Source of the DNA: Bdellovibrio sp.
GTDB taxonomy: Bacteria; Bdellovibrionota; Bdellovibrionia; Bdellovibrionales; Bdellovibrionaceae
DNA length: 24,004 nt
NCBI GenBank assembly: GCA_019104905.1
Contig: JAHRXB010000036.1
Span: forward strand, 1 to 24,004
Direction: 5' to 3'
Of the stretch, positions 2,854-18,953 are shown in pieces. The position numbers were made by a program, and so were the translations under genes. The notes beneath the pieces are model-generated. The model did no database searches. It was not told the origin of the DNA and saw only the letters and a program-made list of their open reading frames with translations. Each line of letters begins with the position of its first letter. Position 1 is the first letter of the stretch.

Positions 2854-3669
2854 TTGGTACTCAATAAACTTCAAGAAACCGTCAGCTATATTCGCACTAA
2901 ATCTTCGGCAAAACCGAAGGTGGGTGTGATATTGGGTTCGGGTCTTGGAGCTTTTGTCAAAGATGTTGAGATCGAGTGCACTCTTCCTTACAAAGAGATT
3001 CCGCACTTCTCGCCCCCCACGGTTGAGGGGCATTCGGGAAATCTTATTTTCGGCAAGGTGGACAATCAGTCCATCGCGATTTTACAAGGCCGCAATCACT
3101 ACTACGAAGGTCACAGCATGGAAAGTGTTGTGTTCCCCACTCGCACACTGGCGATGCTAGGAATTGAAACCTTAATTCTTACCAACTCTGCGGGTGGTTT
3201 TGGTGAAAACATGCAGGCCGGAGATTTTATGATCATCGAGGATCATATCAATCTGATGGGCACAAATCCTCTGATGGGACCCAACATCAAAGAACTCGGA
3301 CCTCGCTTTCCCGACATGACAGAGGCTTACGATAAGCGCCTGATCGAAATCATGGAAAAATTGTTGCAGAAACAAGGCACTCGTTATCACAAAGGTGTTT
3401 ATTGCGGCGTCAGTGGACCTACTTACGAGACTCCGTCAGAAGTTCGCTACTTGAAGTTGATCGGCGGCACGGCTGTCGGCATGAGTACGGTTCCCGAATC
3501 TATTGCCGCAAACCACTTAGGCCTTCGTGTAGCAGCCCTCAGTTGTATTACAAATTTGGCAGCGGGTATTTCATCTCAAAAGCTTTCCCACGATGAAGTC
3601 ACCGAAACCGCCAAAAGAGTTGAGCTTCAGTTCAGTTCTTTTTTACGAGAGTTCATCACACAAATCTAG
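2854..3669 (+). CDS. punA: Purine-nucleoside phosphorylase, trimeric (PunA) type
   Basis: Converts inosine, guanosine and their deoxy forms to free purine and (deoxy)ribose-1-phosphate. The 271 residues fit the trimeric PNP/MTAP class. Visible motifs: VGVILGSGLGAF (phosphate-binding glycine loop), HFSPPTVEGHSGNL, LQGRNHYYEGHSM, LTNSAGGFGENMQAGDFMIIEDHIN, GPTYETPSEVRYLK with the purine-site Glu, and TAVGMSTVPE. The start is TTG at 2854, supported by AAAGGA at 2843-2847 with 6-7 nt spacing; no ATG is available near the conserved N-terminus. It is the last gene of the nucleoside operon. A 6-bp hairpin (AAGGTC/GACCTT, 3679-3698) follows the stop but has no U-run, so termination there is doubtful. 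Confidence 0.94.
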   Translation: MVLNKLQETVSYIRTKSSAKPKVGVILGSGLGAFVKDVEIECTLPYKEIPHFSPPTVEGHSGNLIFGKVDNQSIAILQGRNHYYEGHSMESVVFPTRTLAMLGIETLILTNSAGGFGENMQAGDFMIIEDHINLMGTNPLMGPNIKELGPRFPDMTEAYDKRLIEIMEKLLQKQGTRYHKGVYCGVSGPTYETPSEVRYLKLIGGTAVGMSTVPESIAANHLGLRVAALSCITNLAAGISSQKLSHDEVTETAKRVELQFSSFLREFITQI

Positions 3670-3800
3670 CTCTCATCAAAGGTCCAGTTTTAGACCTTCT
3701 AGCCTCAAAATAAGACATATAATTTCCGAAGAGCTAACCGGTCGGGCCGATTGCTTGAGTCCTATTGATGGGACCAGATGGGCCCGCACAGGGAGTGAAC

Positions 3801-5033
3801 ATGGATGTTCAAAAGATTCTCTCGGCGGTTGCTTGCATCTTCGTTTTAGCATCTTGTAGCAACAATAAGTCGAGCAGTTCTGTATTTCCGGAAAATGGCG
3901 CCTTAGATTCAAGCGCCTGCATGGGTCAAGCCATCGAAAACAAGTTTATTGTTCAATGGGAAGATGGAAAATTCACCGTCGAGTCCGCTGAAAATGCCGA
4001 CGCCTTTACTAAAAACTTTATTGAGCCTCAGCTTGAAAAAATTAAGTTTGTAGAATTTGATCGCCAACTTCAAGTCGACAAGACCGATGAAGTTCGCGCC
4101 AGCGGATTCACTGACAGTTGGGGACAAGATAAAATCTCGGCGCGCTCTGTGTGGGCTCAAGGGGTTTACGGTCAAAATATCAAAGTCGCCGTTGTTGATG
4201 CCTACGTGGATTACACCCATCCACAACTTCAACCACGTATTGCCATCAACACCCAAGAAATTCCTAACAATGGAATCGATGACGACGGAAATGGTATTGT
4301 TGATGACTACTATGGAGCAAGTTTCGTCTCTGTTCCCAGCAGCAATCCCACTCCCAGCGCTCACGGCTCCCATGTGGCCGGAATCATTGCGGCAGATCCC
4401 CGCTTTGGGTCTGTCGAGGGGGTTGCCCCTCAGGCGCAAATCATCCCGGCTCAATTTATTGCCAATGATGGTGGCGGGTCATTAGGAGACGCCGTTTTGG
4501 CTTTGCAGTATTCGGCCAGTCGAGGCGCTAAAGTCATCAATGCAAGTTGGGGTGGAGCCCCGTGCGTGGCCTCTTTGCGCAACACCTTTCAAGAGTTACA
4601 AAATAAGGGAATCCTTGTCGTTGTCGCCGCAGGAAATGATGGCCGGGATATCGATGTCTATCCAGAATTCCCCGCCTCTTTCAACATCGGCACACAAATC
4701 ACCGTGGCCGCTTCGTCAATGAGTGACTTTATGACCTCTTGGTCAAACAGTGGTTTCGAATTTGTTCACGTTGCCGCGCCAGGAGAGCATATCTTGAGTA
4801 CCGTTCCGGGCAACACCACGGCTTATATGGATGGAACAAGTATGGCTGCCCCTTTTGTCAGCGGAGCTGCGGCTTTGATTTGGAGTGCTCGCCCCCAGGC
4901 GACAGCGGTGCAAGTTAAAACCGCTCTTTTGAAGTCTGTTGACGTGTCCCCAGGACACGAATTTAAAGTAAATACTCGAGGACGCATTAACGTCGAAAAG
5001 GCTCTTCAGGTCTTGAAGCAGTTAGTCCCATAA
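3801..5033 (+). CDS. Subtilisin-like (S8 family) serine protease, lipoprotein
   Basis: Read from the ATG at 3801 (410 residues). GGGAG at 3791-3795 sits 5 nt upstream, and this start yields a clean lipoprotein signal peptide MDVQKILSAVACIFVLAS ending in the lipobox LASC with Cys19. An upstream in-frame ATG at 3765 would spoil the signal. The S8 triad is complete: Asp133 in VAVVDAYVDYTHP, His188 in SAHGSHVAGII, and Ser347 in DGTSMAAPFVSG. The oxyanion Asn279 lies in VVAAGNDG. An acidic loop (IDDDGNGIVDD, about 159-169) probably binds calcium. The short segment between Cys19 and the catalytic domain, about 20-110, could act as a propeptide or linker. The protein is expected to be membrane-anchored outside the cytoplasm. 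It stands alone between two metabolic operons; prey-protein digestion is a plausible role but only inference. Confidence 0.93.
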   Translation: MDVQKILSAVACIFVLASCSNNKSSSSVFPENGALDSSACMGQAIENKFIVQWEDGKFTVESAENADAFTKNFIEPQLEKIKFVEFDRQLQVDKTDEVRASGFTDSWGQDKISARSVWAQGVYGQNIKVAVVDAYVDYTHPQLQPRIAINTQEIPNNGIDDDGNGIVDDYYGASFVSVPSSNPTPSAHGSHVAGIIAADPRFGSVEGVAPQAQIIPAQFIANDGGGSLGDAVLALQYSASRGAKVINASWGGAPCVASLRNTFQELQNKGILVVVAAGNDGRDIDVYPEFPASFNIGTQITVAASSMSDFMTSWSNSGFEFVHVAAPGEHILSTVPGNTTAYMDGTSMAAPFVSGAAALIWSARPQATAVQVKTALLKSVDVSPGHEFKVNTRGRINVEKALQVLKQLVP

Positions 5034-15813: not shown

Positions 15814-16815
15814 TTGTCTAAAAAAGACTTCTACTCTATTTTAGGTGTTGCAAGATCAGCCTCTCCAGAGGAAATAAAAAAAGCGTATCGCAAGCTAGCG
15901 ATGCAATATCATCCTGACAAAAATCCTGGAGACAAAAAGGCCGAGGAAAAGTTCAAAGAGATCAGCGAAGCTTACGACACCCTCAGCGATACCAAGAAAC
16001 GTGAAATGTACGACCAATTCGGCCATGCTGGCGCCCAAGGATTCGGCGGCGCCGGAGGTCCCTTTGGGGGCGCTGGAGGCGGCTTTGGCGGTTTCGGGGG
16101 CGCAGGACGTTCACAAGCCGGTGGAGACCCTTTCCAAGATATCTTTGGCGATGTCTTTGGTGATATCTTCGGTGCAGGACGAGGCCCTGGCGCTGGCGGT
16201 CCTCGCGCTCGTCGACAACAAACTAAGGGCACAGATCTTCGTTACACTCTCAATATTTCATTTGAAGACTCTGCTCTTGGTTGCGAAAAAGTGATCAGCT
16301 TTATGCGCCAGCGTGGCAACAAAGAGGAGTCCGCAAAACTCTCTGTCAACGTGCCTGCAGGCGTAAAGGAAGGTCAACGACTTAAGTTGGCGGGCGAGGG
16401 CGACGCTGCGCCCGGTGGCGGAACTCCCGGGGATCTTTACGTGATCGTCAACATTCAAGATCATCCCCTTTTTAAGCGCAGTGAAAATGATGTCACTTTG
16501 GATCTACCAATCATTTATACAGACGCCATTTTAGGAACAAACATTGAGGTTCCCACTTTAACAGGGAAAGCGATGATTCGTATTCCACCGGGAACTCACT
16601 CTGGCCAGACCTTCCGCCTGAAGGGAAAGGGTTTCCCTAAGATAGGTGGATTCGGATCTGGAGACATGTTGGTGCGAATTCTTGTCGATACTCCTCCCCA
16701 TCTTTCCGCGCGACAAAAAGAACTAATTGAAGAATTGTCCAAGGGCGCGGAAACAACTCCCTTAGTAAAGTCTTTCCAGGAAAAAGTGTCTCAGCTTATG
16801 AGGAACAGAAAATGA
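15814..16815 (+). CDS. dnaJ: DnaJ-type co-chaperone lacking the zinc-finger domain (class II, CbpA-like)
   Basis: A protein of 333 residues. The J-domain occupies 1-70 ([25 protein letters not shown]) with the HPD motif at 33-35, which stimulates DnaK ATPase. A glycine/phenylalanine-rich linker covers about 72-135 with many GGF/GGA repeats and [15 protein letters not shown]. Two beta-sandwich substrate domains follow ([60 protein letters not shown]). The CxxCxGxG zinc repeats of classical DnaJ are absent, so this is a class II J-protein. The start must be TTG at 15814: an in-frame TGA stands immediately before it and no ATG occurs before the J-domain. Its stop overlaps the next start (ATGA). 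Confidence 0.92.
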
Positions 16816-18473
16816 CCCCACGATTTACTCTTTTACTTGGGGCCTGCCTTTTGGCCTCGTGCACGACCGTCGCAACAAAGAAGCGCGCCGCCTTCAAGCA
16901 ACCCTATAAGCCACCAACGGCCGCTGCAGAAAAAAAACCCAAAGCCCTCGCGGGCATGAGCGCAGGAAAAGCTCCTGAACCGGTGAAGAGCGAGTCAAAA
17001 GCTCAGGACGCCATGGGGTACCTTAAGTCTTTAGTAGACAAGTCTGTCCAGGCGCCGAACAAGCAAGAGCAAGACTCTAACCGTCTTCACGCCATTGATA
17101 TCGTCGAAAACAAGCTCAATGAAGAACAACTTGAGGACGTCGCAGACAATTCTGATTTTGGTTTCTTGCGCGGCCACGCGATGTTTAGATTGGGAGAAAA
17201 TGCTCTTGAACACAAAGACACCTCGGCTGCGAAAAAATATTTTTCAGGAGTTATAGATTATCTGCCCGGAAGTGATCTTGCGGTTCGAGCTCAAGAAATC
17301 GTTCAACAACTTGAAGCCGCGAAGAACGTTCAAACTCAAACAGTCGGTGTTGTTCTACCTTTGAGTGGAAAAAACGCTCCCGTGGGTCAGCGCGCTTTGC
17401 GCGGCCTTGAAATGGGTTTGGGCCTTCACATTCCCGGTTCAGGATTTAAGTTGGCCGTCATGGACAGTGAGGGGAATCCCGACTCTGCCCGCCGAGGCGT
17501 CGAGCGTCTTGTTAAAGAAGATAACGTGATTGCGATCGTGGGCAGCCTGTTAAGCAAAACAGCGCCTGCCGTAGCCGCAAAGTCTGATGAACTGGGTGTC
17601 CCGACCATTGCCCTCTCGCAAAGATCCGGTTTGACGGAAATTGGGCCGACAGTTTTTAGAAACTCCCTGACAAGTGGGATGCAAGTCCGCGCCTTGGTTC
17701 GCACCGCCATGGAAGACTTGGGTATGAAGAAGTTTGCTATTCTTTATCCCAACGATCTTTATGGGGTTGAGTTCACAAATATTTTCTGGGACGAAGTTTT
17801 AGCTCGAGGCGGGCAAATTACAGCGGTGCAAACGTATTCAACAAAAGAAACAGATTTCAGGCTTGTCATTCAGCGACTCGTCGGAACGTATTTTGGAGAA
17901 GCTCGCCAAGACGAGTTTTCGGTACGACTGAAAGAGCTTCAACATGCTGATAAAAAAAGATCGGTCCGCCAATCCAACTTAGAAACAGTTCTTCCTCCCA
18001 TTGCTGATTTTGATGCCGTCTTTATTCCTGACAGCGCAAAGGCCATGGGGCAAATCTCTGCCATGCTTTCCTACAATGACGTTCGCAACGTGAAGTTGAT
18101 GGGAACAAATCTGTGGAACACCAAGGATGTCGCTCGCAGAGCTGGGAATTTTTCTAATAATCTTCTTTTTGTGGATAGCGTTTCTCCCACCACCCACAAC
18201 AAGGCTCGTTTTGTGACTGAGTATAAAGCTCTTTACAATGAAGAGCCCTCCCTCATTGAGATTCAGGCTTACGATGCGGGCCTTATTTTGCGTCAATTGA
18301 TCGCCTCAGGGGCCAGTTCTCGCGAAGACCTCACCAAGCGCCTGACTGAACTTAAACACTTCCCTGGAGCCCTGGGCTCTGTCTCCATGAGCTCTGAACG
18401 GGAGATTGAGCGCCCCGTGACCCCCCTAACTATTGAAAAAGGCGAAGTTATTCCCCTTAATGTCACCAAATAG
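16812..18473 (+). CDS. Lipoprotein with type 1 periplasmic-binding fold, LpoA-like
   Basis: A protein of 553 residues. The signal peptide [16 protein letters not shown] ends in the lipobox LASC with Cys17. A Lys/Pro/Ala-rich linker (20-65) is followed by a helical TPR-like part (about 88-172, with [25 protein letters not shown]). A periplasmic-binding type 1 domain follows from about 176 ([82 protein letters not shown]). This is the architecture of LpoA, the outer-membrane activator of penicillin-binding protein 1A. Branched-chain amino-acid-binding proteins share the second domain only. The ATG overlaps the dnaJ stop by 4 nt, so the two are co-translated. Its role in peptidoglycan synthesis is inferred from architecture, not shown. 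Confidence 0.86.
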
Positions 18474-18504
18474 AGTCCATAAGAATATTTTATGACGATT
18501 TTTT

Positions 18505-18581
18505 AACCCCCTTTTTGGGATGCCCCGTCTAAGAATCACCTGCGGCGAAGACGCTGCAAAATTCTAAAGAAGGGGGTTGTT
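18505..18581 (+). promoter_or_regulatory. Structured leader that can hide the ribosome site of the first DksA-like gene
   Basis: AACCCCCTTTTT (18505-18516) can pair with AAAGAAGGGGGTT (18567-18578, one G-U) over 12 positions, five of them consecutive G-C. Nested inside are AGAAT/ATTCT (18532-18536 with 18561-18565) and TGCGGCG/CGCTGCA (18541-18547 with 18552-18558, loop AAGA). The outer right arm contains AAGGGGG, the Shine-Dalgarno sequence, 5 nt before the ATG at 18582, so this fold would block translation. No T-run follows, so it is not a terminator. Competing reading: the left arm and the CGTC at 18526-18529 could instead be the -35 and -10 of an ECF-sigma-like promoter. Confidence 0.5.
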
Positions 18582-18953
18582 ATGACGAATCGTATTTCTG
18601 AAAACTTAGTGATGGAGTGCAGAAAGAAACTTCTTATTGCAAAGCAGGACGTTTTAAACCGCTTCAGAACAGCCCAGCGTGAACTTGTCCACGCCGAAAA
18701 AGGTGGTGACGAGGCCGATCAATCTGTCGCTCACATCGAGGAACACTCTTTTTTAGTTTCCCAGGAGCGCATGAGAAATCAACTGGTCGAGATCGAGATG
18801 GCCCTGGCCCGTATCGAACAGGGCACCTTCGGTGTTTGCGAGGAGACCGAAGAAATGATTGAAGCCGATCGCCTTTTGGCAATTCCTTGGACACGCCTCA
18901 GTATCGAAGGTGCAGAACTTCGAGAAGCAGTCAGTCGTAGATTTGCGCGCTAA
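18582..18953 (+). CDS. DksA/TraR-family protein with a degenerate zinc finger
   Basis: A 123-residue protein with the layout of DksA: an N-terminal coiled coil (about 5-80), a tip with DEAD (Asp43 and Asp46, the DxxD pair that acts in the RNA-polymerase secondary channel), then the globular end LARIEQGTFGVCEETEEMIEADRLLAIPWTRLSIEG. In intact relatives this last part holds two CxxC pairs. Here only Cys86 remains; the other three are Thr89, Ser107 and Gly110, so zinc cannot be bound in the normal way. Zinc-independent DksA paralogues are known in other bacteria, so the protein may still bind RNA polymerase and respond to stress or ppGpp. The strong AAGGGGG ribosome site lies in a sequestering stem. 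A second, intact paralogue follows 138 nt later. Confidence 0.88.
   Translation: MTNRISENLVMECRKKLLIAKQDVLNRFRTAQRELVHAEKGGDEADQSVAHIEEHSFLVSQERMRNQLVEIEMALARIEQGTFGVCEETEEMIEADRLLAIPWTRLSIEGAELREAVSRRFAR

Follow-up and report, generated by a model that had tools for sequence, protein, structure and literature searches.

What governs the expression of a DksA-like gene in Bdellovibrio: a folded leader RNA that hides the ribosome binding site, or a promoter written in the same letters? The window, i.e. the whole analysed stretch of 24,004 nucleotides, stems from a Bdellovibrio sp. genome of 2.93 Mb and contains, directly upstream of this gene, a nested RNA fold that an earlier note, made without any comparison to other genomes, interpreted as a thermosensor, riboregulator or protein-binding leader. 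The features that bear on this question are listed below.

16812..18473, + strand: Peripla_BP_6/LppC-like (lipoprotein) gene by profile match, possible source of read-through RNA
18478..18494, + strand: A/T-rich CATAAGAATATTTTATG, putative UP-like part of the promoter, placed by the tract position in the logo
18504..18508, + strand: TAACC, predicted -35 element of an ECF-type promoter, supported by 79 of 82 leaders and the spacing test
18505..18516, + strand: left arm of the outer stem, made up largely of promoter spacer and able to pair with the Shine-Dalgarno (SD) sequence
18527..18532, + strand: GTCTAA, predicted -10 element, 18 bases past TAACC (logo GTCTwA)
18538, + strand: predicted transcription start, an A after the conserved C 18537
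18541..18558, + strand: inner hairpin, close to the 5' terminus of the mRNA as predicted, with 96% of cells paired and three of the five pairs changed on both sides (20 genus leaders)
18567..18578, + strand: right arm of the outer stem, assigned by complementarity and containing the SD sequence AAGGGGG (18570-18576)
18582..18953, + strand: DksA/TraR-family gene of 123 aa with a degraded zinc finger (PF01258, 32.1 bits, cut-off 24.9)

The DksA-like gene and its neighbourhood

The earlier identification of the downstream gene as a DksA/TraR-family paralogue is borne out by PF01258, which matches above its cut-off. As judged by profile scores, the product is a member of the DksA/TraR family but not a DksA equivalog, for it reaches 54.9 bits against the equivalog model TIGR02420, below the cut-off of 115.5. 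Reading of the sequence and the alignment revealed that one of the four finger cysteines is kept. The neighbourhood comprises grpE, dnaJ, the LppC/periplasmic-binding-like gene and then a second DksA-family gene and lon.

Other DksA paralogues of the Bdellovibrionales are preceded by a recurring AGTTCCAAATTGGCACT-like palindrome, often after TTTAAGATTTT...TTGC (loci L067, L069, L071, L073, L074, L076, L078, L079 and L080), which is perhaps an operator or a promoter. A direct repeat of TTATGACGA, which lies in the A/T-rich section of the promoter and again at the ATG, had suggested a mobile element; this idea was rejected, as the 211-bp stretch matches its own genome once.

A fold around the Shine-Dalgarno sequence

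The nested arms described from the single sequence do exist, and as a sequence the folded structure is real. The arms of the outer stem, AACCCCCTTTTT (18505-18516) and AAGAAGGGGGTT (18567-18578), are 12 nt long and 92% complementary, including one G-U pair, and the inner hairpin consists of seven base pairs between TGCGGCG (18541-18547) and CGCTGCA (18552-18558). The minimum free energy of the 91-nt stretch is -33.9 kcal/mol versus a mean of -20.2 kcal/mol in shuffles (z -4.16), and none of 200 shuffles equals it. The SD sequence lies within the outer stem, ahead of the ATG at 18582, and the fold is not followed by a U-run, both as previously stated. It is likewise correct that the fold would bury the SD sequence in any RNA holding both arms; in read-through RNAs of the 23 genus leaders, the SD sequence is on average 84% paired.

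Two further proposals stand only in part. The middle stem AGAAT (18532-18536)/ATTCT (18561-18565) is able to form in the window, though not in most genus leaders: in the alignment of 23 leaders, its left half reads AGAAT in the window-like loci L002 and L003, and AGGAAC or AGGTAC, which are unable to pair in this way, in most others. The letters of the TTGAAA/CTTAAT pair, proposed as a possible start of a transcript with the full structure, are present, but they lie within the lipoprotein gene, at the 3' end of its coding sequence; across the genus, TTGAAA is found at the same offset in 6 and CTTAAT in 2 of 23 leaders (in G009, TTGAAA is a few bases off). The left arm overlaps a conserved TAACC-N18-GTCTAA (18504-18532), which had been missed.

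A probable promoter motif conserved across the Bdellovibrionales

To the 23 genus leaders, homologous leaders from 71 further genomes were added, each taken from the stretch that follows the lipoprotein gene. Eleven of the 71 regions were excluded because the correct strand carried no DksA match, and G036 because it had no usable start. The final set comprises 82 leaders (23 from the genus, 59 others) and retains G039, G040 and G096, whose DksA matches are only 31-40% identical and may not be orthologs.

TAACC is found at most 180 nt before the start codon in 79 of the 82 leaders, the three exceptions being G039, G040 and G096. Across the Bdellovibrionales, the combined signature TAACC-N18-GTC is located before the orthologous gene in 62 of the 82 leaders, with 0.22 expected from shuffles; if ATC is allowed in place of GTC, the number increases to 71, the expectation of 0.22 applying to the GTC form. 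The remaining 11 leaders include sites with a 17-base spacing (G026, G061, G073, G094) or a 19-base spacing (G027, G045, G074), and no site was found in G039, G040, G046 and G096. In G004, the DksA-like gene is located approx. 8.6 kb away from the lipoprotein gene, and TAACC-N18-GTCCTA is still kept.

The consensus consists of TAACC, exactly 18 bases and GTC(T)NA, and the columns of the spacer are low in information. The logo of the 62 leaders additionally contains A and T tracts at a constant distance 5' of TAACC, which may act as an UP-like element, and a conserved C followed by A or C, five and six bases past the -10 element, from which we infer the transcription start at about 18538 (in the HD100-like G006, at about 3738171, some 6 nt past GTCTTA). 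ECF promoters have an AAC-containing -35 and a GTC-containing -10 element, and a gap of 18 bases is slightly longer than usual for this class. Because boxes at a fixed spacing with a free spacer in between are what is expected of DNA read by a sigma factor, we interpret the feature as a promoter. The proposal of a sensing leader on the main mRNA is at odds with this pattern, since the part conserved throughout the order, a fixed spacing around a poorly conserved spacer, is promoter-like. We consider it probable (roughly 0.8) that the feature is a conserved ECF (RpoE-like) stress-type promoter with its predicted start inside the fold. A search of the open-licence literature found no paper on this leader, the promoter motif or the regulon. 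The window contains a second TAACC-N18-GTCCTA match at position 3735 on the + strand, within ORFs 2854-3859, which is probably due to chance.

The candidate sigma factor and its proposed regulon

One TAACC-N18-GTC site is located directly before an ECF sigma gene with Pfam sigma regions 2 and 4. The letters of the bd0743 RT primer published in PMC3464611 occur in locus L203 of this gene, which is therefore considered as the ortholog of Bd0743. The survey of the sigma gene covered 30 loci, taken from 88 genomes with a match; in L217, which is near a contig end, the true upstream region is not covered. The signature precedes the Bd0743 ortholog in 25 of the 30 loci by pattern and in three more by reading, with six outside the genus, and the L241 locus is without the motif. 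As its own gene bears the same signature, the ortholog of B. bacteriovorus Bd0743 is most likely the sigma factor that would recognise the promoter of the DksA-like gene.

Within the genus, the signature is also present before a second lon gene (lon2; 14/23 loci, with diverged spacers) and, less clean, before an HPF/S30AE gene (hpf; 16/23 loci), and the reversed control yielded 0/23 for each; in this survey, L322 is cut by a contig end. Because spacer conservation is rather high at the ECF and hpf loci, their sites are weaker evidence than those of lon2. The distribution of the motif suggests an ECF regulon that would include the DksA-like gene, the sigma gene, lon2 and hpf. A genome-wide excess over the reversed control is absent, both for the counts of 2/5, 3/5, 3/7 and 6/10 (sites/control in G000, G006, G020 and G011) and, overall, for other pattern counts of 8/10, 11/6 and 12/10 (G006, G020 and G009). 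Regulon membership is therefore judged by conservation at orthologs; the missing excess is compatible with a small regulon and gives it no support.

The signature could also be the promoter of another sigma factor (of the Bd0881 type or the larger Bd3314) or the site of a DNA-binding regulator. The motif is kept in G056 and G067 (94% and 98% complete), in which no match to the Bd0743 ortholog was found at 1e-20, and constitutive expression of Bd0743 is reported in PMC3464611, both of which would fit such a factor. Nevertheless, it is the Bd0743 ortholog that carries the signature at its own start, and none of the other sigma genes scanned in G000, G006 and G020 has TAACC-N18-GTC; an assignment to a different sigma factor or regulator appears unlikely. 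The eight other region-4 sigma matches in G056 and G067 are without the exact signature, with a looser TAACC-N20-ATC at L339. The less complete genomes G047, G048 and G073 resemble G056 and G067 in having the promoter without a match to the ortholog, and G039 and G040 have neither. According to PMC3464611, Bd0743 differs from E. coli RpoE in the residues that contact the -35 element, and the groES genes are derepressed upon its loss.

The -10 element of the sigma gene is located only 2-5 nt before the ATG, and the predicted start would thus fall in or next to the start codon. The stretch before the Bd0743 ortholog (L212-L234) is strongly conserved among species and its ATG has no clear SD sequence; the mRNA may be leaderless with a closer start, which is a guess. 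In most of the hpf loci L302-L324, the stretch that separates the TAACC motif from the start of hpf contains CCGATAAG, which is similar to the -10 element of the published Bdellovibrio FliA consensus, and hpf may have two promoters. TAACC-N18-GTCxTA together with similar TNANTARGA-type letters was also observed at G006:C1:2159836 (L251), G009:C4:44399 (L255) and G011:C5:25358 (L190), where no ORF longer than 60-70 aa follows within 250 nt; the same sigma factor may control a small RNA or a small protein there. The gene behind L246/L247 was rejected as a regulon member, based on its palindromic context and the absence of a Pfam match.

Predicted pairing of the putative promoter spacer with the Shine-Dalgarno sequence

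The predicted start near 18538 falls downstream of 18516, where a start would, by the earlier note's own criterion, speak against its interpretation. With this start, the mRNA would contain neither the left arm nor the 5' strand of the middle stem (18532-18536), and would carry a leader of about 44 nt that retains the 5' hairpin and the SD sequence. Between the lipoprotein gene and the DksA-like gene, no terminator-like site was found on the + strand, which makes read-through plausible. RNA that reads through from the lipoprotein gene would contain both arms, fold the SD sequence away and be poorly translated, as the C-rich promoter spacer of Bdellovibrio is also complementary to the SD sequence.

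The difference between the two RNAs was compared for the 78 of 82 leaders with a site, G034 having entered with a wrong, later site. Median SD pairing was 0.89 in read-through RNA versus 0.50 from the predicted start in genus leaders, and 0.75 versus 0.43 in the 55 other leaders. In the HD100-like G006, the contrast is weak, because the SD sequence of the short RNA is still 0.76 paired. Within the genus, the DksA-like gene's own promoter pairs with the SD sequence at 0.82, versus 0.35, 0.16 and 0.13 when the lon2, hpf and ECF promoters are swapped in; DksA promoters of other genera yield 0.49. The spacers at the DksA-like gene are pyrimidine-rich (0.73 in the genus, 0.64 elsewhere) as compared to lon2 (0.52), hpf (0.30) and ECF (0.28).

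The spacer-SD duplex of the window leader is beyond all 400 spacer shuffles. Of the 51 of 78 leaders scored in a duplex test (genus numbers up to 20), 16/23 from the genus and 3/28 from elsewhere reached a shuffle fraction of 0.05 or less; the independent cases are fewer than 23, because the genus leaders are related. Across 29 genera, represented by the 72 of 78 leaders of at least 20 nt, pairing does not exceed the controls significantly (shuffled spacers, p = 0.07; swaps, p = 0.08). Spacer-SD complementarity may have been selected within Bdellovibrio, as far as the compared leaders indicate. That one stretch serves both as promoter and as anti-SD strand is a tentative reading, which we hold to be rather less likely than not and far less probable than a promoter role by itself.

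The short RNA expected from the predicted start can also form a pairing of GGGGTT with AATTCT, which reads AATCT in relatives (window 18561-18578); part of the SD sequence then lies in a loop. G021 has AGTCC/GGGCT at this pairing, which is a compensating change.

Conservation of the fold

A cis-regulatory RNA, such as a thermosensor, riboswitch or protein-binding leader, would sequester the SD sequence on the main mRNA by a stem junction that opens upon a signal. The stability of the fold relative to shuffles is in line with this idea, and a covariance model matches at the DksA-like gene in 20 of 24 genus genomes with E 6e-4 or better (five weaker matches elsewhere have E 0.004 to 0.76). Covariation was analysed by aligning 20 of the 23 genus leaders to a model, with L013, L016 and L022 left out. 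Five of 23 pairs changed on both sides, a number reached by 19 of 500 shuffles, and the covariation score is above all 500 shuffles. This support is modest, may be inflated by the kinship of the leaders, and comes from the outer stem and from the inner hairpin. The second hairpin, however, is 71% paired and shows zero pairs changed on both sides in these 20 leaders, the share of paired cells is 84.9% versus 83.0% in shuffles, and the count of further pair types is no better than in shuffles (244/500). RNAalifold retained only 5 outer pairs in the 23-leader alignment.

Beyond the genus, the fixed-spacing motif is the sole common part of the leaders, and pairing of the arms over 29 genera is not above shuffles. 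Rfam yielded 0 matches at the gathering score in the window, and three sub-threshold matches look like chance. A riboswitch-like junction was rejected on the basis of the second hairpin, which does not covary, and of the few outer pairs kept by RNAalifold. In the read-through RNA, the SD sequence is predicted to be at most 10% open at temperatures of up to 65 C; the intended positive control, E. coli ibpA, likewise remained closed, which renders the temperature computation uninformative both for and against a thermosensor. The ideas of a thermosensor, riboswitch or protein-binding leader gained no support, and we regard a cis-regulatory RNA on the main mRNA as improbable. Mimicry of 16S rRNA was also rejected: seven leaders compared with the 16S rRNA of G006 were not clearly above shuffles (40 to 196 of 200 as good).

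Translational coupling, in which a ribosome terminating on a mini-ORF (ATG-N9-TAA) opens the left arm, is highly improbable, since its ATG, 12 bases ahead of the TAA in TAACC, is largely confined to the genus (19/23 leaders, but only 4/55 outside) and the mini-ORF, located before the predicted start, shares letters with the A/T-rich part of the promoter.

Significance and comparison with known systems

We propose that the promoter TAACC-N18-GTCTAA, with its A/T-rich upstream part, would start the mRNA of the DksA-like gene. This reading provides a candidate consensus for an RpoE-like sigma factor in predatory bacteria; a mutant study of this factor from 2012 reported no E. coli-like RpoE consensus in HD100 promoters (PMC3464611). 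The predicted targets, a DksA paralogue, a second Lon protease and an HPF-type factor, would link transcription control, proteolysis and ribosome hibernation. The locus also illustrates that a promoter can resemble a regulatory RNA when a single sequence is read alone, and it is a candidate for one DNA stretch serving as both promoter and anti-SD.

As a promoter, the site would add a new member to the known ECF class. It shares with ECF/RpoE-type promoters the AAC-containing -35 element, the GTC-containing -10 element, the fixed spacing and the likely autoregulation of the sigma gene. The -35 element of E. coli RpoE-type promoters is GGAACTT; the Bdellovibrio site differs from it by TAACC and by the gap of 18 bases. 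RNA thermometers such as the ROSE element of E. coli ibpA resemble the locus in having the SD sequence in a stem, and grpE, dnaJ and lon provide a heat-shock neighbourhood. Unlike ROSE, the stem is very stable and G-C-rich and its left arm is probably absent from the main mRNA, with the computation not separating the two. Bdellovibrio FliA promoters of attack-phase genes, which carry TTAAG-N16-CCGATA boxes according to PMC3627812, also belong to an alternative-sigma class and are from the same organism, but the window site does not match their boxes.

The closest anatomical parallel is gene e of phage T4. In this gene, and also in soc, 49 and I-TevI, long early RNAs hide the SD sequence, and a late promoter located in the DNA that encodes the 5' strand produces a short RNA that is translated (PMC3014915). 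The Bdellovibrio promoter would similarly overlap the 5' strand of an SD-hiding stem and give rise to a short transcript without that strand; the likeness is one of anatomy. In contrast to T4, the gene is a chromosomal bacterial gene and its putative promoter is of the ECF type. A chromosomal arrangement resembling T4 gene e, in which only the stress-sigma RNA is well translated, combined with a regulon of sigma gene, DksA paralogue, Lon protease and ribosome-hibernation factor throughout the Bdellovibrionales, is a possible but still doubtful extension of the promoter reading.
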